The notes under the pieces: generated by a model
Database searches by the model: none
Told to the model about the DNA's origin: nothing
Seen by the model: only the letters and a program-made list of their open reading frames with translations
In this document: positions 52,585 through 64,000 of the stretch, piece after piece
Layout of the letters: each line of letters starts with the position of its first letter
Position numbering within the stretch: position 1 is the stretch's first letter
Source of the DNA: Bacillota bacterium
GTDB taxonomy: Bacteria > Bacillota_E > JAJZYS01 > JAJYTV01
NCBI GenBank assembly: GCA_021845645.1
Contig: JAJZVM010000005.1
Span: 1 to 64,000 of the forward strand
DNA: 64,000 bases
Direction of reading: 5' to 3'
Program-made: the position numbers and the translations under genes

Positions 52585-52614
52585 TTGCGATCCAGGCGCG
52601 CCATGCGCTATGCT
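52585..52614 (+). promoter_or_regulatory. Promoter of the tRNA-Pro/Gly/Arg cluster
   Basis: TTGCGA (52585-52590), 18-base spacer and TATGCT (52609-52614), ending 13 bases before tRNA-Pro. Confidence 0.6.
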
Positions 52615-52627
52615 TAAGCGTACGCAG

Positions 52628-52702
<75 letters not shown>

Positions 52703-52708
52703 GTTTTT

Positions 52709-52782
52709 GCGGGTGTAGCTCAATGGTAGAGCGGAAGCCTTCCAAGCTTCATACGTGGGTTCGATTCCCATCACCCGCTCCA
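52709..52782 (+). tRNA. tRNA-Gly (TCC anticodon)
   Basis: Acceptor GCGGGTG/CACCCGC, D-arm GCTCAATGGTAGAGC, anticodon loop CTTCCAA, T-arm GGGTTCGATTCCC, encoded TCCA. Confidence 0.95.
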
Positions 52783-52790
52783 TACTTTTC

Positions 52791-52866
52791 GCCCCAGTAG
52801 CTCAGCGGTCAGAGCATCCGGCTTCTACCCGGAGTGCCGGGGGTTCGAATCCTCCCTGGGGCGCCA
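52791..52866 (+). tRNA. tRNA-Arg (TCT anticodon)
   Basis: Acceptor GCCCCAG/CTGGGGC, D-arm GCTCAGCGGTCAGAGC, anticodon loop CTTCTAC, encoded GCCA. Last tRNA before the accessory island. Confidence 0.94.
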
Positions 52867-52897
52867 TTTGTGCGGGTCCGACACCTACCTTTGTACC

Positions 52898-52966
52898 TGC
52901 AAGCATAAATTGTCCCGTTTGGCCAGGATATGCTTTGAGCGTGTCCTGGCCACTTTATGCTTTGCA
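52898..52966. repeat. Long interrupted inverted repeat downstream of tRNA-Arg
   Basis: Nested arms pair as TGCA-AGCATAAA (52898-52909) with TTTATGCT-t-TGCA (52954-52966) and GGCCAGGA (52921-52928) with TCCTGGCC (52944-52951). This gives a ~69-base cruciform/hairpin 31 bases after the tRNA. It may terminate the tRNA transcript or mark the edge of the mobile island. Confidence 0.5.
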
Positions 52967-53090
52967 GGATTTGCACGCTGTCGGACGACATGACCGATGC
53001 AAGGAACGACGTGATTTCGGCCGACAGGAACCTTCGGAAAGGTAGCGCGATGTCGAGCAGCTACAGTCCGGCGGCGCGTGTGTAGATTTC

Positions 53091-53182
53091 GGCTGAAAGC
53101 GAACACCCGGAACGGATGAAACCGAACACTGCGTGCGGTTGAAACCGAACAACGAAAACGGCTGTAGGCGAACACCGCGAGG
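53091..53182 (+). repeat. Four 23-bp direct repeats (iteron-like)
   Basis: Units beginning at 53091, 53114, 53137 and 53160 share GGnTGAAAcCGAACAnC and are spaced exactly 23 bases apart; the middle two are closest to consensus and the outer two carry variants. They lie about 90 bases upstream of the istA remnant, where IS21-family elements carry multiple transposase-binding repeats in the left end. Confidence 0.65.
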
Positions 53183-53273
53183 TAAGAAGAGGGGACCCCA
53201 TCTAGCCGGCCGGCAGTGCGGCGATCCTGACCTTGTTGACCGCAAATCGACAAGGGGAGCAAGATCGCGAGCC

Positions 53274-54023
53274 GTGCCCAACAGGAGGGTCCCAAGGCGT
53301 AGTATTCGCGAGATTGCGAGGCTCCATTTCGAGTTCGGGCTGAGCCTGCGCGATATATCGCGCAGTGTCCACATCGGTGCGACGACGGTGCAGGAGATGC
53401 TGGTTCGCTTCGGCGAGCACGGGCTCAGTTGGCCGTTGCCGGCGGATCTCGGCGACACCGAGCTGGAGCAGATGCTCTATCCCAGGGAAGGCGAACTGGC
53501 CCGTCCGGAGCCGGACTGGTCCTACGTCCACAAGGAATTGCGGCGGCGCGGGATGACGCTGCGGCTGCTCTGGGCGGAGCACCGGGAGGAGCACCCCGAC
53601 GTGCTGGGCTACACGCAGTTCAGCACGCACTATCGGGAGGCCGTCCGGCAACTCGACGTGACGATGCGCCAGGTTCATCCCGCCGGCGAGCGCATGTTCG
53701 TGGACTACGCCAGCATGACGCTGCCGATCGTCGACCGGGCTACCGGAGAACTGCACGAGGCGCAGGTCTTCGTCGCCACACTGGGCGCGAGCGGCTACAC
53801 CTACGCCGAAGCCACGTGGACGCAGGACCTCGAAGACTTCACAGGGTCCCAGGTCCGTGCCTTTCAGTTTTTCGGCGGTGTCACCCGGGTCGTCGTGTTC
53901 GATTATGTGGCGAGGAACATAATCGAACAGACAGCGCTGCGGTATGTCGCCGAAGCTCTGGAAGGCGTGGACGTGGCAGCTCAGGAATGTCGCCACGTCG
54001 GCCCGACGCGTGTCATGAGGTGA
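53274..54023 (+). pseudogene. IS21-family transposase IstA, truncated
   Basis: The frame keeps the N-terminal HTH (SIREIARLHFEFGLSLRDISRSVHIGATTV), the linker LSWPLPADLGDTELEQMLYPREG and the start of the DDE domain (VDYASMTLPIVD; FVATLGASGYTYAEATWTQ; FQFFGGVTRVVVFD). Homology stops at about 53900 at an 11-bp inverted repeat. The expected NLK... continuation, the remaining catalytic region, and istB are absent. The following ~40 codons are unrelated. It starts at GTG 53274 with a poor ribosome-binding site. It is non-functional as a transposase. Confidence 0.85.
53898..53927. repeat. Perfect 11-bp inverted repeat at the istA break
   Basis: TTCGATTATGT and ACATAATCGAA flank an 8-base loop, precisely where IstA similarity ends. 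It could be the scar or end of a later insertion. Confidence 0.55.
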
Positions 54024-55002
54024 GGTATAGATGGAAACCGAGCGGGAGCAGCCAAGCTTGTACGAGCTGGTAGACATGGAGCGTGATCGGGGCGTGGCCT
54101 CCTGAAACCATGTCGAGCACAACGCTCACGTGGCTTAGTGCAAGCTGATCGCGCAGGAGTTGCATCAGTGATGGCGGCAGTTTCGGATCTTGCTGCCCGC
54201 CGATGATCAGCACTGGGACATGGATTACCCGGAAGTTGACCGAGTTCTGCTGATATACGGCACTGCGGAGATCGGTACCGAATACACGTTCCTGTTCGGC
54301 CCAGAAGAACAGGTCGTCGCTGCCCAACGCATCCGTGCCCATCTTCTGTACCCAGTCGTCATATGTAAGGGCCCCAGGCCAGGGGCTATCAAGCACAGCG
54401 GCCCGCACCTGTGTATCGTTCGCCGCGAGCTTCAATGCGACATAGCCCCCGAGCGAGAATCCGAAGGGATACGTCGCGTCTCTCTTTATGTGTAGGCCGC
54501 GAACGTACCCAAGTGCCTTCAGCCCGTTTTGCGTGTCCAGATAGCAGTCATAGGGGCTGCCGATGTTGCCCTCACTTGGTCCATACCCGCCGTAATTCGG
54601 TATGAACACAATGGAATCCGCGTTGGAGGACTCCGCAGCCAACTTGGCGGTGTACACCGGGAGCCCTGTCCAATGGCCAAGCACCTGGGTGACGTCTCCG
54701 CCATGCAGGTAGATCAGGAGCGGGAATGGGCCCTTGCCCTTTGGGACGTCGAGATAAGCCTGAACCTGTAGTCCGCGGCTCCGGTATCGCAGGGAATACA
54801 GTTGCTGGCCCGGCGGCATCAGCGAACGGTACTTCGTCGTCGATATGCGAGACAGTGAAATCGGCGAACCGTCTGCATGGGAATGGGTTGGCCCCATCAC
54901 CATCAAGGCCGCTGCAGACCTGGAACTGCCGACACCGCACCCCCCCAGCACCAGAAGGGGCACCAGCAAACCAATCAGCCTGCGCCATCGCGACCGATCC
55001 AT
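54013..55002 (-). CDS. Alpha/beta-hydrolase lipoprotein (S9/dienelactone-hydrolase-like)
   Basis: This 329-residue protein has a lipoprotein signal ending LLVLGGCG (acylated Cys about residue 22) followed by an alpha/beta hydrolase fold. It has the oxyanion strand LLIYLHGGD, nucleophile elbow FGFSLGG, acid in IIGGQQDPKLP and histidine in SGGHAPITL. It is probably an envelope-bound esterase or peptidase of the prolyl-oligopeptidase/DLH group. It is sandwiched between IS21 and IS3 remnants and its A+T content is higher than the core genes, suggesting horizontal acquisition. ATG 55002 gives the signal peptide; longer frames add non-signal residues. Confidence 0.8.
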   Translation of the reverse strand: MDRSRWRRLIGLLVPLLVLGGCGVGSSRSAAALMVMGPTHSHADGSPISLSRISTTKYRSLMPPGQQLYSLRYRSRGLQVQAYLDVPKGKGPFPLLIYLHGGDVTQVLGHWTGLPVYTAKLAAESSNADSIVFIPNYGGYGPSEGNIGSPYDCYLDTQNGLKALGYVRGLHIKRDATYPFGFSLGGYVALKLAANDTQVRAAVLDSPWPGALTYDDWVQKMGTDALGSDDLFFWAEQERVFGTDLRSAVYQQNSVNFRVIHVPVLIIGGQQDPKLPPSLMQLLRDQLALSHVSVVLDMVSGGHAPITLHVYQLVQAWLLPLGFHLYLTS

Positions 55003-55114
55003 TCCAGCCAACGCATCACATCCCGAGAAATCTGTTGGGATCGGCTTCTCTGTTCTGGTATCTTCCTCCTCTCCACTCCCCTTTCTGTGTTGTCCAACGG
55101 AATCTGAGGCCCCA

Positions 55115-56121
55115 GCGGGGATGCGCAAGGAGAACCGGGTGCTGGCGGAGGAGCGTGAGACCCTGAAAAAGCGGCCGCCTTCTTCGCCGCGGAGTGAAGC
55201 CGAGCACGATAGAGATCTACCGTTTCGTGGCGGTGGAGAAGGCAGCCGACAGCGTTTACATCCTCTGCCGGGTGCTCAAGGTCTCCAGGAGCGGCTTCTA
55301 CGCCTGGTCCAAGCGTGGGCCCAGCCGGCGCAAGGTCGAGGACGAAGCGCTGTTTCAGGAGATCGTCGAGATCCACAAGGCAAGCCGTGAGACGTACGGG
55401 GTGCCACGCATATGCGCCGCGCTGCGACGCGATCGCGGCGTCCGCTGCTCCAGAAAGCGTGTCGCACGGCTCATGCGGGAAGCGGGCGTCCGTGGCATCA
55501 GCCGTCGCCGGCCAGAGGGCACCACCCGGCGCAATCCCTCGGATCCCCTTTCGCCGGATCTCGTCCAGCGCCAGTTCACCGCCGACGCACCCAACCACCT
55601 CTTAGTCTCCAACATCACCCAGCACCCCACCGGCGAGGGATGGCTCTACACGGCCGTGGTCGGCGTGTTCTGCCGCAAGGTGATCGGCTGGGCGACGTCC
55701 GAGAACCTGCAGATGCAGTTCGTACGCGATGCGCCGAACATGGCCGTCCGCAGCCGACATCCCATCCCGGGGAGCACCATCCACCATTCCGACCACGGTG
55801 CCCAGTACACGGCCATGGCGTACGGGCAGCGTCTCAAGGCCACGGGTCTCGTCGGCTCCATGGGCTCTGTCGGCGACGCCTACGACAACGCGCTCATGGA
55901 GAGCTTCGCTCGACCACCAGACCTGGCCCACGAGGAGTTCCCTGCGCTCGGCGATCTTCGAGTACATCGAGGGATTCTACAACCCCCGCCGGACTCACTC
56001 AGCCATCGGCTTCCTGTCCCCAAACCAGTTCGAAAGAAGGTCGGCTCAGACGGCTATGCGAGACCAACCCGCTGCTTCGTAGCCACGCCGATCAACTGTC
56101 CACATAACCGGGGAAACTCCA
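55115..56121 (+). mobile_element. IS3-family insertion sequence remnant (orfA tail, mutated orfB, right end)
   Basis: 55121-55197 encodes the leucine-zipper end of OrfA (MRKENRVLAEERETLKK) with a base missing in the AAAAAG-rich stretch. OrfB follows from 55194: HTH/linker (VLKVSRSGFYAWSKR), then an integrase core in which the first catalytic aspartate block reads VSNIT instead of VADIT, while HHSDHGAQYT and MESF remain. Around 55905-55945 the frame shifts by one and about ten residues are lost. The end (AIFEYIEGFYNPRRTHSAIGFLS) continues in the next frame to 56082. A right end, TGTCCACATAACCGGGG..., lies at 56097-56121. The left end and most of orfA are missing. Confidence 0.82.
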
Positions 56122-56124
56122 CTC

Positions 56125-56304
56125 CTGCGCTCGGAGATCTTCTCGTTCATCGAAGGCTTCTACAACCGCCACCGCCTACACTCCAGCCTCGGCATGGTCA
56201 CCCCGGCTGAGTTCGAAAGGAGGTGGTTTGCCACGGCAACCGATCACCAATCACGCGCTTCGTAGCCAAGCCCCCGAAATGTCCGCGAAAGCGGGGCAAC
56301 TCCA
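56125..56304 (+). pseudogene. Second IS3-family orfB C-terminal fragment with right end
   Basis: The frame 56125-56265 reads LRSEIFSFIEGFYNRHRLHSSLG and on to a TAG, the C-terminus of an IS3 OrfB related to, but distinct from, the preceding copy. Its right end (TGTCCGCGAAAGCGGGG..., 56280-56304) resembles the first element's end at 56097-56121. The first element abuts it directly, implying insertion of one IS3 copy into another. Confidence 0.8.
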
Positions 56305-56406
56305 ACTGGCTGGCGGTGCACCTCTGGTCGGTGGAGGACATTGCCATTTGGTGGAGAACCCTCCCACTCGGTCAGAGAACGGACCCGGATGCGCGGAGGA
56401 CTGCAC

Positions 56407-57483
56407 ATGAAGGTGACGTCTTGGCCGACTCTGCGGGCGGCCGGAGTAGCCTTGGCCATGCTCGTGGGCCTGTCAGGCTGCACCGCAGGTCACCGGTCGG
56501 TCCCAACGCTCTTGCTACCGAAGCGTGTCGGAGACTTCACGCTGCAGTGGGTGAAGGGGAGCGGGGCACTCCAGCGCACGCCACACTCGATCTCTACCGG
56601 CCCCGCCACATTCACCATCGGCCCCGGACCCTTGTACCGCCTCACAGCGCGCATGCCCGACGGCCGACTCAGCGCCTCCGAGCCCGTCGAATGCGCTCCT
56701 GTGCCCATGTGGCAGGTAGACCTCATAGGACCAAACCCGGGCATGCTCTGCACGTACCGCGGAGTCCTGGTCCTTTATCTTCTCAATTCGAACGGACCCG
56801 GCGTGCCGCTTGGCTCGGCAGGGATAGGAATCATGAAGGTGGCCCAATCAGGGGCACTCGGTCCGCATAACCTTGGCGGTTACGTCGTCGAGGGCGGCGT
56901 TGCATGGTGGCTGAATGGTCACGCCGGGAGAATCCTCGCTTCAGGCTTTGTGAGCACCTTGACCTCTGCCACCGCGGCGCTGCCTATGGGACTCTTGCCT
57001 TCCGCCGGCGGGATAAGACTGCTGTCGCTGGCCGACCAACTCTACGTCTTGAGGCGTGTGGGTACTGGCTACGAGGTCTTCGCACCCAATTATCGGACTT
57101 CGCAACTTCAGCCACTCGGGGATATACCTTATGGCCACGTCGGGGCCGTTGACCAGTTCGGCGGCGTCTGGATAACACGGAAGTTGGGTGCCAGTAGCAT
57201 TGACCTGATACGCGCACAGCCTGGACAAGCCAGCCTACCCACCTGGCACGTCAAAGGGCAGCTAGTCGGCGTCGGGCCAGGCTTTCTCGCTTACCTCGCC
57301 CCGGGTGCAGGCCAGCAGACCTTGCGCCTCATGTTTCCGCTGAGCCATCGCACCCTGGTGGTGCGATGGCTTCGGCCTCCGTTCGCAACCATGCAGGAGG
57401 CCCAGGACGGCAGCATCTATCTCTACCTGCATCTCGCCACCGGAAGGCGAGTTCTTCGGATAGCGTGGTCGCCTTTGAAGTGA
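56407..57483 (+). CDS. Lipoprotein of unknown function
   Basis: This 358-residue protein has a lipoprotein signal with lipobox LVGLSGC (Cys about residue 24). The exported part is rich in short beta-strand segments with repeated glycine and aromatic spacing (for example DQFGGVWITRKLG and AGGIRLLSLADQLYVLRR), reminiscent of a beta-propeller, though no defined repeat could be set. No enzyme motif is seen. It is followed after 22 bases by a second lipoprotein gene in the same direction. It lies just behind IS3 remnants and is lower in G+C than core genes, so it is probably acquired. Confidence 0.6.
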   Translation: MKVTSWPTLRAAGVALAMLVGLSGCTAGHRSVPTLLLPKRVGDFTLQWVKGSGALQRTPHSISTGPATFTIGPGPLYRLTARMPDGRLSASEPVECAPVPMWQVDLIGPNPGMLCTYRGVLVLYLLNSNGPGVPLGSAGIGIMKVAQSGALGPHNLGGYVVEGGVAWWLNGHAGRILASGFVSTLTSATAALPMGLLPSAGGIRLLSLADQLYVLRRVGTGYEVFAPNYRTSQLQPLGDIPYGHVGAVDQFGGVWITRKLGASSIDLIRAQPGQASLPTWHVKGQLVGVGPGFLAYLAPGAGQQTLRLMFPLSHRTLVVRWLRPPFATMQEAQDGSIYLYLHLATGRRVLRIAWSPLK

Positions 57484-57505
57484 ATCTGTCGAGGTGGTGA
57501 TTGAG

Positions 57506-58060
57506 ATGCGACTCCCGTACACCAAGGCAGTGATCGCTGCCCTCGTCGCAATGCCCCTCGCGTCATGCGGTAGCCAGAGCGCAATCAAAGTGCCACCCTC
57601 ATCACCTGCCGCTCGGCAGGGCCGCCTCGTCGGGTCTGCCGTCCCGCTCGCCTTGGCGTCTAAGACGCGAGCCTTCCTGGTCGGCACGCCGCCCGTCCAC
57701 GTGACCCCCACCCGTCTCGCCATGGCGACCCGCAGCATCGGCTGGGCAGCCGGCAAAGGCCTCGGCGGGCAAGCCGGGTCCTACCTCGCGCTCGGTACAT
57801 CGGATGGTGGGTCCAGCTTCCGGTTGCTCTTCACCGCGCCCGCACCGATCGTCGCCGTTTCGGCGCCCGACGCCCGCCACGCCTTCTTCTTGGAACAGCA
57901 GTGCACCAACGGCGGGTACTGCACGGACTTTGGCCTCCGGCTTCCTTCAGATCCCGCCTCGCGACGGACACCCTTGCCTTCGGCTTGCGGTTGCCACGAC
58001 CAGGCCCCGCAGGGGACTTGCACCCCCAGGTCATTTACCCATGCCGGGCGCACTACGTGA
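57506..58060 (+). pseudogene. Truncated lipoprotein with one YCF48/BNR-like propeller blade
   Basis: This 184-residue frame starts with a lipoprotein signal (lipobox MPLASC). One blade-like unit follows: SIGWAAGKG...YLALGTSDGGSSFRLLF...DARHAFFLEQ, similar to the TSDGGxTW units of photosystem-assembly/BNR proteins, which normally repeat several times. After NGGYCTDFGL the sequence becomes arginine/proline-rich without pattern and ends, suggesting a frameshift or deletion that removed the remaining blades. ATG 57506 has GAGGTG upstream. It could still yield a secreted fragment. Confidence 0.55.
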
Positions 58061-58092
58061 AGACGGAGCGCCTCGCATAGCGCTCCGTCTTC
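58059..58092. terminator. 13-bp stem terminator between convergent genes
   Basis: GAAGACGGAGCGC and GCGCTCCGTCTTC pair around an 8-base loop, overlapping the stop of the plus-strand lipoprotein frame and 14 bases from the stop of the minus-strand nucleotidyltransferase, so it probably serves both directions. Confidence 0.7.
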
Positions 58093-58106
58093 TCCAGAGT
58101 CCGATA

Positions 58107-58715
58107 TCAGAGATCCGGTCCTTCGTGCTCCTTGGCCTTCTTCGGCGGGGACGGCCCTCCGAGGAAGTCCGACACCTTCCTCGGCCCGAAGTCAGCATGG
58201 ATCGCACTCCGCACCCGCTCCGCTTCCTCAGGCGTACATTCGGTTTCGCCGAGTCGCTGTTCGAGGGTCTGCTGTTGCACAAGTCCCGCCTTCACGATCG
58301 CGCGGCAGAACCTGCGGTCCTTCTCACGGTTGGCTAGGTACTTCGCGATCAGGAGATCGTGCGGCTCGAGGCAGTACGCGGTCACGCCGCGGGTGGCCGG
58401 TGTGAGCACCGGGATGAGCCGATCCTCCCATCCGCGCGGTAGCCGGCTCGTGGTCCTTGACACTCCATCGGCGTACACCTGGAAGGTGTCGAAAAACAGC
58501 GATCCTTCGCCCAGCGTCCCGTTGATCAGGTCGGCCTTGCGCTCCGAAGGGTCGTCAAACGGCAGTACGTCAAGTTCTTGAGACATCGTGGCTTCCACAG
58601 GGAGACCGTCGGCGTACTTGCCGAGTATCGCCTGACTGCCGACGATGATGAGCCGATCCTCGTTGAGGATCGTTCCTGCCGCTCGGACGAGGTGTTCCAT
58701 CTCATCGCGGCGCAT
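58107..58715 (-). CDS. DUF6036-like nucleotidyltransferase-fold protein, possible toxin
   Basis: This 202-residue protein resembles AbiEii/DUF6036-type nucleotidyltransferase-fold proteins. It has the glycine-serine start IIVGSQAIL, the acidic pair ELDVLPFDD about 20 residues later and the later conserved CLEPHDLLIAKYLANREKDRRFCRAIV. Relatives act as toxins or phage-defence proteins that modify tRNA or proteins. It overlaps the preceding small gene by 14 bases, a typical antitoxin-toxin layout. ATG 58715 has GGAG 7 bases upstream; ATG 58700 is an alternative. It lies in the mobile island. Confidence 0.68.
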   Translation of the reverse strand: MRRDEMEHLVRAAGTILNEDRLIIVGSQAILGKYADGLPVEATMSQELDVLPFDDPSERKADLINGTLGEGSLFFDTFQVYADGVSRTTSRLPRGWEDRLIPVLTPATRGVTAYCLEPHDLLIAKYLANREKDRRFCRAIVKAGLVQQQTLEQRLGETECTPEEAERVRSAIHADFGPRKVSDFLGGPSPPKKAKEHEGPDL

Positions 58716-59037
58716 TCTGCCACTCCTCCGCAACGGCACGCTGGATCGCCCAGGTCTCCTTTGGAGGTACGATGCCAGTGAATGGTGTGGTATGCCGCAG
58801 CGCCGTCGCGTATTCGCTCTCTTCAACCAGCACTGCGAGCAGCTTCTCCCGTGGGCCGTTGAGCAGCCGTTCCCACTCATGCACGTAGTACGACTCATTT
58901 GGGCGGCCGCGCCGCGCCTCGAGCGTGCCCCTCGCCTTCCGCAGAACAGGGCCTGGATCGGCTCGGAGCTTGGCTGCGATGACCTGGTGCAGCCGCAGCG
59001 AGAAGAGGTCGTTCTTTCGATGACCGCTCACGAACAC
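58702..59037 (-). CDS. Small protein paired with the nucleotidyltransferase, candidate antitoxin
   Basis: This 111-residue basic protein (for example HQVIAAKLRADPGPVLRKARGTLEARRG) has a helical, DNA/RNA-binding-like composition. I recognise no named domain. GTG 59037 is chosen because AAAGGAGG lies 8 bases upstream; a longer frame to 59088 would place that ribosome-binding site inside the gene. Tight coupling to the downstream DUF6036-like gene is the main evidence for an antitoxin or accessory role. Confidence 0.5.
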   Translation of the reverse strand: MFVSGHRKNDLFSLRLHQVIAAKLRADPGPVLRKARGTLEARRGRPNESYYVHEWERLLNGPREKLLAVLVEESEYATALRHTTPFTGIVPPKETWAIQRAVAEEWQNAPR

Positions 59038-59094
59038 GAACTGCACCTCCTTTGCCCCAAGTATAGCCACCTGCTGCATAGCGGCCAATGCTGG

Positions 59095-59440
59095 TCAGCG
59101 GACCTTGATCGACTGACCCAGTGCCAGCGCGTCGTCAATGCCCTTGCCCCACGACGCCTTGAGCACCTGCACCTCCATGCTCTTCAAGACTTCGCGGAAC
59201 TCGGCCAGGTTGCGCTCGACAGCTTTGCGAGTCTCTGCCCGCTCATCCTGGTCAGAAGCCAGGATCACACGCTCCGCCTTGATCTCCTGCACTACCGGAA
59301 CAGCCTTGCGCCAGTTGGCGACGCCGGCCACGCCGAGCGCCGGAACCGAAAGCAGGTGTGAGGCCACGTCCGCCTTGAGAGGGCCTTCCGTTATCCAGAT
59401 CGCCCACCGCCGCCGCACGATCTTGCGCCCTGCAACATGG
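59095..59440 (-). pseudogene. C-terminal fragment of a DUF3854/Toprim-like plasmid primase protein
   Basis: The minus-strand frame contains AIWITEGPLKADVASHLLSVPALGVAGVANW and VILASDQDERAETRKAV, the Toprim-like acidic motifs (E in TEG, D in SDQDE) of DUF3854 proteins found in plasmid replication and integrative elements. The N-terminal half is missing, because upstream of about 59440 the same frame passes into unrelated transposon sequence. It marks a former replicon or integrative element. Confidence 0.65.
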
Positions 59441-59645
59441 CATGGAAGGGCGCGGCGTTTGCCGAAGCCGAGATCTATCGTGTCGTGGAGGCGCTCGGCG
59501 TGGTGGCCGAAGCGGAGATCAAGGCAGACATGACCGTGCCCGAGGCGGCTCCTGCGACGCCGGCCGGGGATACACTGCTCATCGGCGTGGACGGCACCAC
59601 GAGCTTCATCGACGGCGACTGGCACGAGGTGAAGGTGGGTGTTGT
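59440..59645 (+). pseudogene. Internal fragment of an ISKra4/ISLre2-like transposase
   Basis: The plus-strand translation AFAEAEIYRVVEALGVVAEAEI...LLIGVDGTTSFIDGDWHEVKVGVV matches the block before and around the first catalytic aspartate (VDGT...DG.WHEVKVG) of these transposases. No flanking parts are present. The frame continues only through antisense of the next fragment. Confidence 0.6.
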
Positions 59646-59835
59646 GGGACTCGACGTGGGTACGGGAGAGGTTCCTGCCGGCCAGCGGAGCATAGGCACC
59701 GTCGCCACAGAGGTGGAACCAGCAGCCCGGGAACCACTCGGCCAGTTCCCGCATCATCTCCGCCACGAGGTCGAGGTGGGTCTGGCCGGCGGCGTCCTCA
59801 AGATCGAACGTTGCCCATGGGCCATCCGTCATGAA
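59645..59835 (-). pseudogene. Internal fragment of another DDE transposase
   Basis: The minus-strand translation includes HLDLVAEMMRELAEWFPGCWFHLCGDGAYAPLAGRNLSRTHVESH, resembling the central DDE block (GDGAYA...LAG...THV.SR) of IS4/IS701-like transposases. It breaks off at the junction with the ISKra4-like fragment and has no intact ends. Confidence 0.6.
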
Positions 59836-59849
59836 CGCTGACTCACCGT

Positions 59850-60339
59850 CGATCGTCAAATCACCCGACGCCGCGCGTGGTGTCAACACGCCCAAAATAC
59901 ATGAACAAGCGCCGATGGTATTCCAGCAAAGAACGGAAACCTCCTCTGCCAGCATCTGCCTGCGCGACAGACATCAACCCGCGCGCCGACATGGTGCGGA
60001 TCATCCACCACGACCGATTGTTGAAGGCACAACCTTGAAGCAATGATTCGGCCGTTTTGGCCAATCGCTGCTTCCTTTTTTTGCACGCAACCCAGTTGCG
60101 CTCGATCAACTCCCTTGGCTCGGTGGGGATTCAGCGTCCCGGAGGCAGTGGGCACCTGGCCCGATGAGGGATGGTGCGGCATCCGTGTTCTTCGCCCTAT
60201 CGGAGCAGATCCTGGCCATCGATCCATGGGAACCATGGCCCTATCGCACTCATCTTGGCCCGGCGCCCGGATGCAGGACCTCTCTTGCTGTTCCGCACGC
60301 TAGAAAGACACGAACTCCAAACCCGCCCCCGGAACCTCT
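59850..60339. other. 490-base stretch with no recognisable gene
   Basis: I see no protein family, RNA or repeat here. Base composition is lower in G+C than the core (T-rich runs near 60070). It separates the transposon mosaic from the UGA-containing gene and may be decayed island sequence. Confidence 0.4.
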
Positions 60340-61086
60340 TCAGAGGGAGAGGTCGCGATCCCCCTGCGCGTACTGCCGCGCAGCGGCCACGAAGGCGCTG
60401 ATCAGCGGGTGCGGCTGCGCGTAGCGGGAACGGGCTTGGGGCACGTAGAGGGTGGCGATGAAGTACGGATGGTCCGCAAGCTCAAGAGCGCGGACTTCTC
60501 CGTCTTCGCCGAACGCGCCGAATGCCAGACCGTGCGCTTCGAAGGCCGGACGATAGTCGGGATTGAGGCCATAGTTGCAGAAGAACGGTTCAACGACCGC
60601 CTCCGTGGCATAGAGAGCGTGCACCCTGGAGCCGGGAACAAACCGGACAACATGTTCTTGCCCAGCAAGTGAGCAGGCAAGCGCAGTCACGGTGAGGCGC
60701 TGGGCGGTTGGATTTGTCTCTTCGTGGTCGGCGTCCTTGATCCCCAGAACATTGCGGGCGTACTCGACGAGTACGTGCTGGAAGCCTCCTCAGGTGCCGG
60801 TCAAGGGTACCTTGCGTTCGCGGGCGAACTGGATGGCACGGAGAGCACCGTCCATGTTCTCATAGGGGCTGCCGGGGGCGATCAACAATCCTGCGAAGCG
60901 CGAGAGTCGGTCGGCGACATCCTCTTGGAGCGTGGCAGTCGGAACCCATTCAAAGGGTAATGGGGCGGCGACATGCGTAAAAGCATTATTCGTCGCAACA
61001 TGGTTTGGATACTTGGGATCGTAGTCTCCGATGATGCCGATGATGGCGCCCCTGGGGCGATCCTTGACATGCGGACTCCGCAACAT
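60340..61086 (-). CDS. CTP-synthase C-terminal-like glutamine amidotransferase, probable selenoprotein (UGA = Sec99)
   Basis: One continuous frame of 249 codons is interrupted only by TGA at 60792-60790. Before it: GAIIGIIGDYDPKYPNH...FAGLLIAPGSPYENMDGAL...KVPLTGT; after it: GGFQHVLVEYARNVLGI and on to HPYFIATLYVPQARS. TGA occupies exactly the nucleophile position of the class I amidotransferase motif (TGT-C-GGFQH). Proteins of this CTP-synthase-C-terminal-related family are known with Cys or Sec there. A hairpin GTACTC-GTC-GAGTAC starts 15 bases after the UGA, within the distance range of bacterial SECIS elements and with G first in the loop. The His/Glu of the usual triad are Val/Gln. ATG 61086 follows GGAGG; a longer frame begins at 61167. 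A nonsense mutation is the alternative. It is divergent from a LysR gene. Confidence 0.75.
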
Positions 61087-61190
61087 CGGGTCAGCCTCCG
61101 TTTCAGCTGCAGTCATGCGTGCGAAATCCAGCGTTGTCCACGGTGGCGGCAGGTACTTACGTTCCAAGAGTATGGCTTGACGGATACATC

Positions 61191-62150
61191 ATGTCTACTT
61201 ACGCTTTCTGCATGGAACCTGTAAGCCAGGACTTCACATTGGATCTCCGAAAGGTGCGCATCCTGCTGGAGTTGCGTGAGCGCAGCACCATCACAGCCAC
61301 CGCCGAGGCACTGCATCTGACCCCTTCTGCGATCTCGCAGCAGATCGCAGCCTTGAGTCGTGAGATCGGAGCGCCTCTCTTGGTGCGGCAGGGCCGCGGG
61401 GTGCGGCTCACGCAGCAGGCGATCCTGTTGCTGAACCACGCTGCCCTACTCAATGCACAGCTTGAACGCGCGCGCGCCGACCTGCTCTCCTACGCCGTCG
61501 GAGAGATCGGTCAGGTCGTCGTTGGCGCTTTCGCAACCGCCATCACGGGCCTGGTCGCTCCAGTGGTGGCGAGACTGTCCCGCGATCGGCCGGGGGTGCA
61601 CCTGACGGTCCGTGAGGTCGAGGCACCGGACTGCTTTACCAGCCTGGACTCGGGGGAACTCGACGTGGTCGTCACGGTGGACTATCGCCTCGGCCCGCTG
61701 CACAACGATCCGCGCTATCACCGCTGCCACCTGCTGCATGACGTGTTTGTCGTGGCCTTGCCGGCCAGTCACCATCTTGTGAGCCAAGAGTCCATCGACC
61801 TCGCAGACCTTTCGGACGAGGTCTGGGTGTTGGGCGCGATGGGCGGGGCCTGCCATGAAGTCAGCTTGGCGGCGTGCACCGCGGCTGGATTCGCCCCGAA
61901 CGTCCGACACCAGACGAACGATTGGAACGCGGTCCTCGCGCTTGTCGCCGCCGGTGCGGGCGTGGCTCTCATCCCGAGCCTGGCGCTAGCGCCGCATGGC
62001 TACGAGGGCATCGCTTTGCGCCCCACGTCCGGGCCTCAGTTGCCGATGCGTCACATCTATGCTGCGGTGCGGGCCGGGGCCGAGAAGTCTCCAGTGCTCA
62101 CGCCGGTTCTCGATCTGCTCCGAGAGGCCGCCGCGTTGCATGCGGGCTGA
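61191..62150 (+). CDS. LysR-family transcriptional regulator
   Basis: This 319-residue regulator has an N-terminal winged HTH (VRILLELRERSTITATAEALHLTPSAISQQIAALSREIGAPLLVRQGRGVRLT), a linker helix, and a periplasmic-binding-like effector domain (GQVVVGAFATAITGLVAPVVARL; LVAAGAGVALIPSLAL). It is transcribed divergently from the UGA-containing gene with about 100 bases between start codons, the usual layout for a LysR regulator and its target. The inducer is unknown. ATG 61191 is used; ATG 61212 also fits. Confidence 0.9.
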   Translation: MSTYAFCMEPVSQDFTLDLRKVRILLELRERSTITATAEALHLTPSAISQQIAALSREIGAPLLVRQGRGVRLTQQAILLLNHAALLNAQLERARADLLSYAVGEIGQVVVGAFATAITGLVAPVVARLSRDRPGVHLTVREVEAPDCFTSLDSGELDVVVTVDYRLGPLHNDPRYHRCHLLHDVFVVALPASHHLVSQESIDLADLSDEVWVLGAMGGACHEVSLAACTAAGFAPNVRHQTNDWNAVLALVAAGAGVALIPSLALAPHGYEGIALRPTSGPQLPMRHIYAAVRAGAEKSPVLTPVLDLLREAAALHAG

Positions 62151-62528
62151 AACCGGATGCAAAGACTCGCCGAACACAGGGCCTGCTGACCGACGAATGC
62201 ATCACAAGACCCAGACATCTGAGGGCTGCCCTTCGGGAGAGCGTTCCTTCCATGCCCGCGATTCCTGCGACAACCTGCCCTGCTCGTTCCGGTCACGACC
62301 CCGTTCGGAGTGGAGGCACCTTGGACCAATCCCTCCGCAGACACCCACGGCGGCAGGCGGGCCAACCACAGAAGGCCACTCCCCGACTACCCCATAGCAT
62401 CCTGGCGCCAGGCCGTCGTCCGAGTGTTGCCACGACATCTATAATGGTTGGCGCACTCCACAAACAGTTGGTGCCCTGCGCGCGCGCAGCGGCGCTGTTC
62501 GTCGTCTGCGCCGCAGGGGGTGGCGAAG
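62151..62528. other. 378-base intergenic stretch
   Basis: No gene, tRNA or clear regulatory element is recognised between the LysR gene and the MFS transporter. Frames here have no family-like sequence. Confidence 0.4.
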
Positions 62529-63806
62529 GTGAAGCGCTGGATCGCGGCGCAGGTCCCGCGATCTCTGTCCGATGTGCCGTTCCGCCGCTACTGGTTGGGC
62601 CAGGGCCTCTCCTTGGTCGGCGACCAGATCCGCATGCTCGCCCTGCCCCTGACGGCGGTGCTGGTGCTGCATGCCGACGCGGTGGGAATGGCGCTGCTCA
62701 GCGCTGTCGGCATGCTGCCTTGGTTGCTCTTCTCCGTGCACGCAGGTGCCTTCGTGGACCATCGCGGCAGGCGGCGCCAGACGATGCTGGCGGCAGATGC
62801 GCTGCGGGCCCTGCTGCTTGTCCTGGTGCCGGTTGCCTTCCTGCTCAAGCTGATCAGCCTGCCGCTGCTGTTCTCCGCCTCGTTCCTCGTGGGCACCTGC
62901 TCCGTGCTCTTCAGCGTCTCCGCAAGCACGCTCTTCGTCTCACTGGTGCCCAGCGATCGCTACGTCGAGGCGAGCTCGCTTCTGAGCGGGTCCCGGGCCG
63001 CGGCCTTCTTTGTGGGTCCGGGCATCGCCGGCTACCTGATCCAGCTATGCGGGGCGCCATTCGCCCTCTTGGCCGATGCGGTGTCGTTTGTCGCCTCGGC
63101 GGCTTCCCTCGCAGCCATCCGCCCGCAGGAGCCTCCTCCCGCCCTCCGGGCGCAGGGGGACGTCCTCGCCGGCCTCAGGTTCATCCGCTCGTCGCCGATC
63201 CTTCGTGCATCGCTCGGCGCCGCCGGCACGATCAGCCTGTTCCAGTCCTTCTTCGCCGCGCTCTACATCCTCTACGCCACCGTATCGCTGCATGTGACGC
63301 CGTTCGAATGGGGCATCATCCTCGGGCCGAGCTCCGTCGGCGCACTCCTCGCGAGCGGGCTCGCCGCGCGACTCAGCAGGCGGTTCGGTCTCGGTCGCAC
63401 GCTGCTGCTCGGCACGTTGCTCTACACGGTGCCGTACCTGCTCGTGCCGCTCGCCGGCGGGCCGCACGCCCTGGTCGTCGCCACGCTCTTCCTGGCCGAG
63501 TGCCTCGTCGGCGCTGGATCGATGATCCGCGAGATCGCGAGCGGCACCATCCAGGCGGTTGCGATCCCCGATGCCGTGCGCGCCCGTGCTTCGGCCGGTT
63601 TTGTCGGCGTGAGTTCCGGCATCCGTCCCGTCGGGGCACTGCTCGCCGGCGGTCTTGCCGCCTTCCTGGGCGTGCACTTCACCATCTGGGTCGCGACGGC
63701 GGGAGCGGCACTCGCGTTTCTCTGGCTGATCCCGCTCCCCCTCGCCAAGCTCCGTGCGGCGGCGGACTTCGCGAAGGCCGCTCCACCGGAGTCGGTCGGC
63801 GGCTGA
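62529..63806 (+). CDS. MFS efflux transporter (MFS_3/EntS-like)
   Basis: This 425-residue transporter has 11-12 membrane helices. The opening PFRRYWLGQGLSLVGDQIRMLALPL matches the MFS_3 family of multidrug/macrolide and siderophore exporters. The loop after helix 2 reads GAFVDHRGRRRQTM (motif A, GxxxDRxGRR), and the second half has AARLSRRFGLGRTLLLG. The substrate is not predictable. GTG 62529 follows GGGGGTGG; GTG 62520 is possible. Confidence 0.87.
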   Translation: MKRWIAAQVPRSLSDVPFRRYWLGQGLSLVGDQIRMLALPLTAVLVLHADAVGMALLSAVGMLPWLLFSVHAGAFVDHRGRRRQTMLAADALRALLLVLVPVAFLLKLISLPLLFSASFLVGTCSVLFSVSASTLFVSLVPSDRYVEASSLLSGSRAAAFFVGPGIAGYLIQLCGAPFALLADAVSFVASAASLAAIRPQEPPPALRAQGDVLAGLRFIRSSPILRASLGAAGTISLFQSFFAALYILYATVSLHVTPFEWGIILGPSSVGALLASGLAARLSRRFGLGRTLLLGTLLYTVPYLLVPLAGGPHALVVATLFLAECLVGAGSMIREIASGTIQAVAIPDAVRARASAGFVGVSSGIRPVGALLAGGLAAFLGVHFTIWVATAGAALAFLWLIPLPLAKLRAAADFAKAAPPESVGG

Positions 63807-63830
63807 CTGACGTGGCGTGCGGAGGGCGCC

Positions 63831-64000
63831 ATGACCACGTGCGTGCAGGATCTCCCGGAACGGCGCGTGAATTCCGTACGTCCAGCATCCCTTGCGCCGG
63901 CCGCAGGTGCAGCGCCGGCCAAACCGCCGATCGCTGCAGTCCTGGGACATGCCGCAAGGTGCGCCTCGGGGGGAGAAATGGCCAAGCACGACCGCCGGCA
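63831..64000 (+). CDS. Start of an unidentified gene, truncated by window edge
   Basis: From ATG 63831 (GGAGGG 4 bases upstream) the frame stays open for 56 codons to the end of the window: MTTCVQDLPERRVNS, an Ala/Pro-rich stretch, then GGEMAKHDRR. A second possible start, ATG 63978 behind GGGGAG, is in the same frame. No family is recognised. It might be co-transcribed with the MFS gene. Confidence 0.3.
   Translation, partial: MTTCVQDLPERRVNSVRPASLAPAAGAAPAKPPIAAVLGHAARCASGGEMAKHDRR

Follow-up and report, generated by a model that had tools for sequence, protein, structure and literature searches.

Does a UGA codon that interrupts an amidotransferase-like gene of an uncultured Bacillota lineage encode selenocysteine (Sec), and if so, what might Sec do at that position? 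The gene lies at 60340..61086 on the reverse strand of a 64,000-nucleotide stretch (contig JAJZVM010000005.1 of assembly GCA_021845645.1, positions 1 to 64,000), referred to here as the window. An earlier note, made from the sequence alone, proposed that the UGA sits at the nucleophile position of a glutamine-amidotransferase-like gene and is probably read as Sec. We compared the gene with its homologues, its downstream RNA with synonymous recodings, and its genus-level relatives with control genomes.

A probable Sec-type member of the NF004836 family

The frame runs from an ATG at 61086, preceded by a likely ribosome-binding site (GGAGG, 61095..61099, reverse strand), to a terminal TGA at 60342-60340. 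Its sole internal stop is the TGA at 60790..60792, codon 99, within the motif GT-U-GGFQH; the final one of the 249 codons is a stop, so the product would comprise 248 residues. The coordinates and frame given in the earlier note are correct, as is its statement that similarity continues in the same frame on either side of the TGA. Homology to NF004836 ("CTP synthase C-terminal region-related (seleno)protein") covers residues 16-236 and profile positions 3-227 of 228, flanking codon 99, with a score of 289.9 bits against a curated cut-off of 260. CTP synthase profiles score far below their cut-offs (121.7 bits vs 308 for NF003792; 121.6 vs 462.75 for TIGR00337), only the C-terminal part of each profile is aligned, and the window product lacks the synthase domain. 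Against the closest relative found (locus L001, 75% identical), pN/pS is 0.32 before the TGA and 0.23 after it; the corresponding dN/dS values are 0.19 and 0.12, with synonymous sites near saturation. These ratios indicate that the post-stop part is under protein-level constraint.

Taken with the homologue, hairpin and machinery data below, these comparisons make it nearly certain, in our estimation, that codon 99 is a site of Sec insertion. That the gene is both an NF004836 member and one whose UGA is read as Sec is very probable.

UGA and cysteine share one position among homologues

Among 101 relatives of the nearest genome we found four close homologues (75, 55, 55 and 44% identical), and all four have TGA at codon 99. 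The remaining matches, judged collectively, resemble CTP synthases in score and frame length, along with weak partial ones. Scanning named genomes for exact matches to the motif with TGA (GT-UGA-GGFQH) returned 65 stretches. Sixty-two of these, including the records of the four close homologues, are Sec-type genes with family residues in frame on either side of the TGA; the other three (L055, L059 and L082) were judged chance matches. By title, the 62 loci span at least seven phyla: 13 Rokubacteria, 13 Chloroflexi, 11 Bacillota or Clostridia, 10 Actinomycetota (counting Acidimicrobiia and Thermoleophilia), 6 Acidobacteria (counting Bryobacterales and Terriglobia), 6 Deltaproteobacteria or Desulfobacterales, 2 Planctomycetota and 1 'ANGP1'. 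L001-L004 were identified by searching with the protein; all other Sec rows were found through the exact motif, and residues 97-104, including His104, are fixed by that selection.

In 238 full-length database relatives, residue 99 is Cys in 234, Trp in three and Leu in one. The residue at this position is thus not random among homologues, as the earlier note would have required for its reading. The alignments below use 254 Cys rows, 13 of them chosen for a Cys codon at position 99; the 234 of 238 database proteins are the unbiased Cys count. A single query matched 5672 database proteins at E <= 0.001; the best 120 of these were inspected, and the rest may include distant amidotransferases. In a sample of 299 genomes of the phylum, only two carry homologues at E <= 1e-42; that of G021 is Sec-type. 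A further locus flagged as TGA-bearing (G427/L129) has its stop upstream of the start codon and Cys at residue 99. Phage matches (10 shown of 16) are 27-31% identical, the level of an ordinary CTP synthase, and were disregarded; L106 was excluded from later counts.

We also built a tree by a quick method from 158 of 308 rows retained after identity thinning, with the Sec and hairpin columns removed. The Sec label changes 13 times on this tree, of which the starred branches force only two, and the window gene and L001 are nested in a mostly Cys clade with support of 84-90. Because the Sec rows derive from a motif scan and the Cys rows from the best hits of two queries, we make no claim about the direction of Cys/Sec change.

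A SECIS-type hairpin follows the UGA

The earlier note described a stem-loop beginning 15 bases past the TGA as a plausible bacterial Sec insertion sequence (SECIS). It is present: a stem, GTACTC-GTC-GAGTAC, opens 15 nt past the UGA, and one further C-G pair extends it to a 7-bp hairpin (60759..60775, reverse strand) with a 3-nt apical loop, GUC, that starts 21 nt past the UGA. A 39-nt segment that we chose around it folds at -9.8 kcal/mol. Criteria for bacterial SECIS elements quoted in a 2026 review are a loop of 3-9 nt, a stem of 4-16 bp, a G in the first two loop positions, a spacing of 16-37 nt and a minimum free energy of <= -7.5 kcal/mol (PMC13188914). The window hairpin agrees with all of these as quoted.

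The hairpin is convincing as a candidate SECIS through the set of Sec homologues, not through the window gene alone. After generic folding energy had given a weak result, we turned to a hairpin-specific stem score, and the Cys control was run afterwards with that score. In 57 distinct Sec sequences (63 minus six identical), the mean score of the best unbroken stem is 12.7, compared with 6.2 after synonymous recoding, with p<=0.05 in 34, and 41 contain at least six unbroken pairs. Because the sequences are related, the tests are not independent of one another. Cys-type genes score 6.25 against 5.6 recoded, with p<=0.05 in one of 16; these were the loci, of 20, that fitted the motif pattern (L106, L123, L126 and L134 were excluded).

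The hairpins fall into two registers, the loop of the first lying one base earlier than that of the second. In register 1 (30 sequences) 98.3% of cells are paired, with 10 double-changed cells; in register 2, which includes the window (23 sequences), the figures are 82.6% and eight, both percentages being inflated by the assignment of rows to registers by best pairing. Sliding the registers drops pairing to 16-55% and 20-65%, respectively. For both sets, none of 500 shuffles reaches the observed number of paired cells, the number of double-changed cells or the covariation score. Two Bacillota bins, HSP1.bin10 and HSP2.bin29, each hold two distinct Sec-type copies (L045/L087 and L066/L083), one per register. 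A loose scan of the window found five other places where a TGA is followed by a hairpin; by eye, these look like high-GC non-coding frames.

Selenocysteine machinery in the genus

Six genus-level genomes were searched for the Sec machinery. Matches over the cut-off were found for selB in six of six, tRNA-Sec in five (68.7 bits each), selD in five and selA in four. The gaps fall in G004, which is 78% complete, and, for selA, also in G001, where the gene is a fragment at a contig end. The same cut-offs are exceeded in 14 named control genomes by selB in two, tRNA-Sec in five, selD in two and selA in one; since five controls pass it, the tRNA-Sec cut-off alone is loose. Each of the five selD matches in the genus is interrupted by one TGA. 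In L110 (G003) this TGA lies within the motif GG-UGA-GCKV, which the same script did not show for L111 (G002). The SelD of L110 is thus probably itself a selenoprotein, judged by this motif, suggesting that the genus decodes UGA as Sec in a second gene.

Weighing the Sec assignment

Several observations, in addition to the inflated pairing percentages, weigh against reading codon 99 as Sec. The Cys count of 234 of 238 is biased toward Cys forms, as Sec genes are truncated in protein databases (P0123, P0160). The machinery is assigned to the window's organism from its genus-level relatives, and the selB, selD and tRNA-Sec models give some signal in all 14 control genomes. Regarding the hairpin, that of the window alone is marginal against synonymous recoding (p = 0.049); 16 of the 57 Sec sequences, eight of them Rokubacterial, lack six unbroken pairs; and generic folding energy separates 63 Sec sequences only weakly from recodings (median z -1.0; 31 below -1, five below -2, six positive). 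Covariation is uneven as well. In the window's register, 173 of 500 shuffles have as many doubly changed pairs as observed, and 448 as many further pair types (three and 500 of 500 in the other register), and a +2 slide gives a higher covariation score (0.220) than the assigned register (0.186). L001 (G008:C28, the same record as L080) has an in-frame TAG at the equivalent of the window's Tyr109, 10 codons past the TGA, with the remainder of the frame open. Finally, the gene's surroundings are not syntenic with G001. The window is syntenic with contig 129 of G001 from 40.0 to 53.0 kb (75-84% identity), up to a tRNA cluster at 52628-52863; from there to 64 kb, G001 matches only as pieces of <=0.7 kb. 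A search of the six genus genomes (76-99% complete), with a filter that drops some matches, returned no homologue of the gene. G001, at 99% completeness, showed no CTP synthase in that search either, and because the first-pass filter loses matches, the gene's absence from these genomes is only fairly sure. The loss of synteny and the lack of a genus homologue place the gene in a variable stretch behind the tRNA genes.

If the gene were a pseudogene, its TGA would have arisen by nonsense mutation of a Cys-type gene or would reflect an error in sequencing. The genus-variable surroundings, which include an IS3-type transposase frame at 55194-56210, would suit such decay, as would the additional TAG of the nearest relative. 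The contig carrying that TAG is a metagenome contig with a coverage of 3.17 in its title, so both a sequencing error and a young lesion are possible there. The earlier note had named other inactivating lesions in close relatives as a finding that would count against Sec; the window copy itself has no further internal stop, and it is in this nearest relative, G008, that one does occur. We consider a pseudogene highly improbable, given the identical TGA codon in 62 named loci from at least seven phyla, a hairpin that accompanies most Sec genes and not the tested Cys genes, the purifying selection past the TGA and the otherwise intact window frame. Decoding of the UGA as another amino acid, such as Trp or Cys through near-cognate reading or an altered code, is scarcely credible. 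It could draw on the Trp found at position 99 in three of the 238 database proteins (P0127, P0133 and P0142), for which our guess is gene calling under another code. The gene's own terminal stop is TGA, however, the Sec machinery occurs in the genus, a hairpin lies downstream, and the alternating residue is Cys, the usual counterpart of Sec.

The amidotransferase triad is lost throughout the family

A class I amidotransferase combines a nucleophile on the elbow with a His and a Glu. In the window protein the elbow nucleophile is present, with Sec in place of Cys, and Val215 and Gln217 occupy the positions of the other two. Solved CTP synthases (for example 1vco and 5tkv) align with His-Pro-Glu opposite the Val-Pro-Gln of codons 215-217 (60436..60444, reverse strand). 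The earlier note had pointed to this Val-Pro-Gln in the gene. The residues are as it stated; they are the normal state of the family. None of the 62 Sec members and none of the 254 Cys members has the catalytic His. At the position of the catalytic Glu, 61 of the Sec members and 230 of the Cys members carry Gln, with Glu retained in 15 of the latter. As the His is lost family-wide, its absence is not a lesion of the window gene.

Other residues have been kept or exchanged consistently. The family conserves Asp21, Cys170 and Arg199, and relative to CTP synthase it shows Lys21 to Asp, Tyr29 to His, Ser121 to His, His170 to Cys and Glu199 to Arg. Cys170 (60577..60579, reverse strand) is present in 62 of 62 Sec-type sequences, with one gap, and in all 254 Cys-type sequences, where 24 of 24 CTP synthases have His. 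These 24 (of 26 loci tried) were chosen by Cys-motif and HPE/HKE patterns, which determined in advance what they show at Cys99 and at His-Glu. Cys138 (60673..60675, reverse strand) is found in all 63 Sec-type sequences and in 227 of the 254 Cys-type ones.

Given that the family keeps these other residues (Asp21, Cys170 and Arg199, with Cys138 in every Sec form), we consider ordinary hydrolysis of glutamine unlikely, and the window protein is probably not a canonical glutaminase. A true Sec protein could still be a glutaminase or amidohydrolase, with Sec as its nucleophile and other residues replacing His and Glu. It has the fold and the nucleophile elbow of the CTP synthase glutaminase domain, and it shares Arg89, Gln103, Glu202 and His226 with CTP synthases. 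We think this improbable, however, given the near-complete loss of the catalytic pair and the replacement of the Arg-His-Arg stretch of CTP synthases around Cys170. A selenolate also offers little advantage in simple amide hydrolysis.

A possible Sec99/Cys138/Cys170 site

For the Sec protein we envisage the following scheme. SelB and tRNA-Sec, directed by the hairpin 15 nt downstream, would decode codon 99 as Sec, as judged from comparison with homologues and relatives. The product is predicted to be a stand-alone protein of the class I amidotransferase fold, resembling the CTP synthase glutaminase domain. Sec99, on the nucleophile elbow, would be the catalytic residue and present a reactive selenolate; Asp21, a Lys in CTP synthase, or a His might activate it. 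Cys138, Cys170 or both could resolve Sec99 as selenenylsulfide or disulfide partners; alternatively, Sec99 might serve as the nucleophile of a non-glutamine hydrolase or transferase.

Redox work at Sec99, as the earlier note suggested, or other selenol chemistry is plausible. Redox cycling of Sec99 with Cys138 or Cys170, more specifically, we consider less likely than not, and the lack of Cys138 in 27 of 254 Cys forms counts against it. We speculate further, and tentatively, that a glutaminase domain has become a selenium-dependent redox or transferase enzyme across many phyla, built around a Sec99/Cys138/Cys170 site whose chemistry would be new to the amidotransferase fold. Its His-Glu pair would have been discarded, Asp21 would stand in for the strand-1 lysine and Cys170 for His, and Cys138 would have been kept in all Sec forms seen.

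DJ-1/PfpI-type proteins likewise have an elbow Cys in a related alpha/beta fold, lack a canonical His-Glu triad and carry an acidic residue near strand 1. The best structural matches of the window protein are CTP synthases.

Genomic setting

The ~11 kb after the tRNA cluster (52600-64000), with the transposase frame and a set of variable genes, resembles an integration region. Divergent from the Sec-type gene, on the forward strand, is a LysR-type regulator gene at 61191..62150 (ATG 61191; a longer frame starts at 61119), which reaches no cut-off among the 25 NCBIfam families shown and is possibly a local regulator. On the reverse strand, frames at 58107-58898 and 59095-59955 match DUF6036 (a nucleotidyltransferase of unknown function) and DUF3854, and 57911-57968 is weakly matched by the Rfam model of group II intron D1-D4-3 (35.4 bits against a gathering threshold of 32), over only 58 bases for 170 model positions.

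Neighbours of the 62 Sec loci were examined through 104 frames, hand-picked from 185 proposed by a home-made coding score; choosing the longest open reading frames had been dropped, as this yielded mostly high-GC antisense frames. No common partner emerged among the 104 (the top Pfam family, MFS_1, occurs in six), and the 25 Pfam families shown, of 126, include none of the LysR type. Because no shared neighbour gene was found, we put forward no substrate with confidence. In two plasmid records from Klebsiella and Enterobacter (L109 and L127), the Cys-type gene adjoins a CynX/NimT-family MFS gene and DUF488, and L109 also has DUF523 beside it. A Sec form of DUF523 has itself been reported (PMC12013277). 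The MFS gene of the window, beyond the LysR gene, belongs to a subfamily other than CynX/NimT.

Relation to known selenoproteins and significance

Sec-containing members of this family have been published before, and the window gene adds a further one. Using deep-Sep, Xiao and Zhang reported in 2025 a selenoprotein of Desulfosediminicola ganghwensis, labelled 'glutamine amidotransferase (COG0504, PyrG)', that has both Cys and TGA homologues (PMC12013277). The 2026 review lists the family with the motif GxUxG and NF004836, a cross-reference that makes the D. ganghwensis protein a member of the same family from an organism group other than the window's (PMC13188914). The earlier note held that Sec members were known from annotation; they are known, and from these publications as well as annotation. 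The window copy shares with NF004836 / PRK06186 a near full-length match, the GTUGGFQH motif and the Cys/Sec alternation, and nothing places it outside the family; its own features are its source in an uncultured lineage and its GUC hairpin loop. Within the literature searched, which included PRK06186 and, in part, PMC13188914, PMC12013277 and PMC9138612, we found no function for the family and no account of the triad loss.

Sec forms of this family are easy to miss because gene callers can cut them short, as in P0123 and P0160. A Sec on a former amidotransferase elbow, with the rest of the triad gone family-wide, marks a group of enzymes with unassigned chemistry. Cys forms occur in culturable bacteria, as the plasmid matches show, and this chemistry is therefore directly testable; the Sec/Cys pairs provide a natural test of what selenium contributes.
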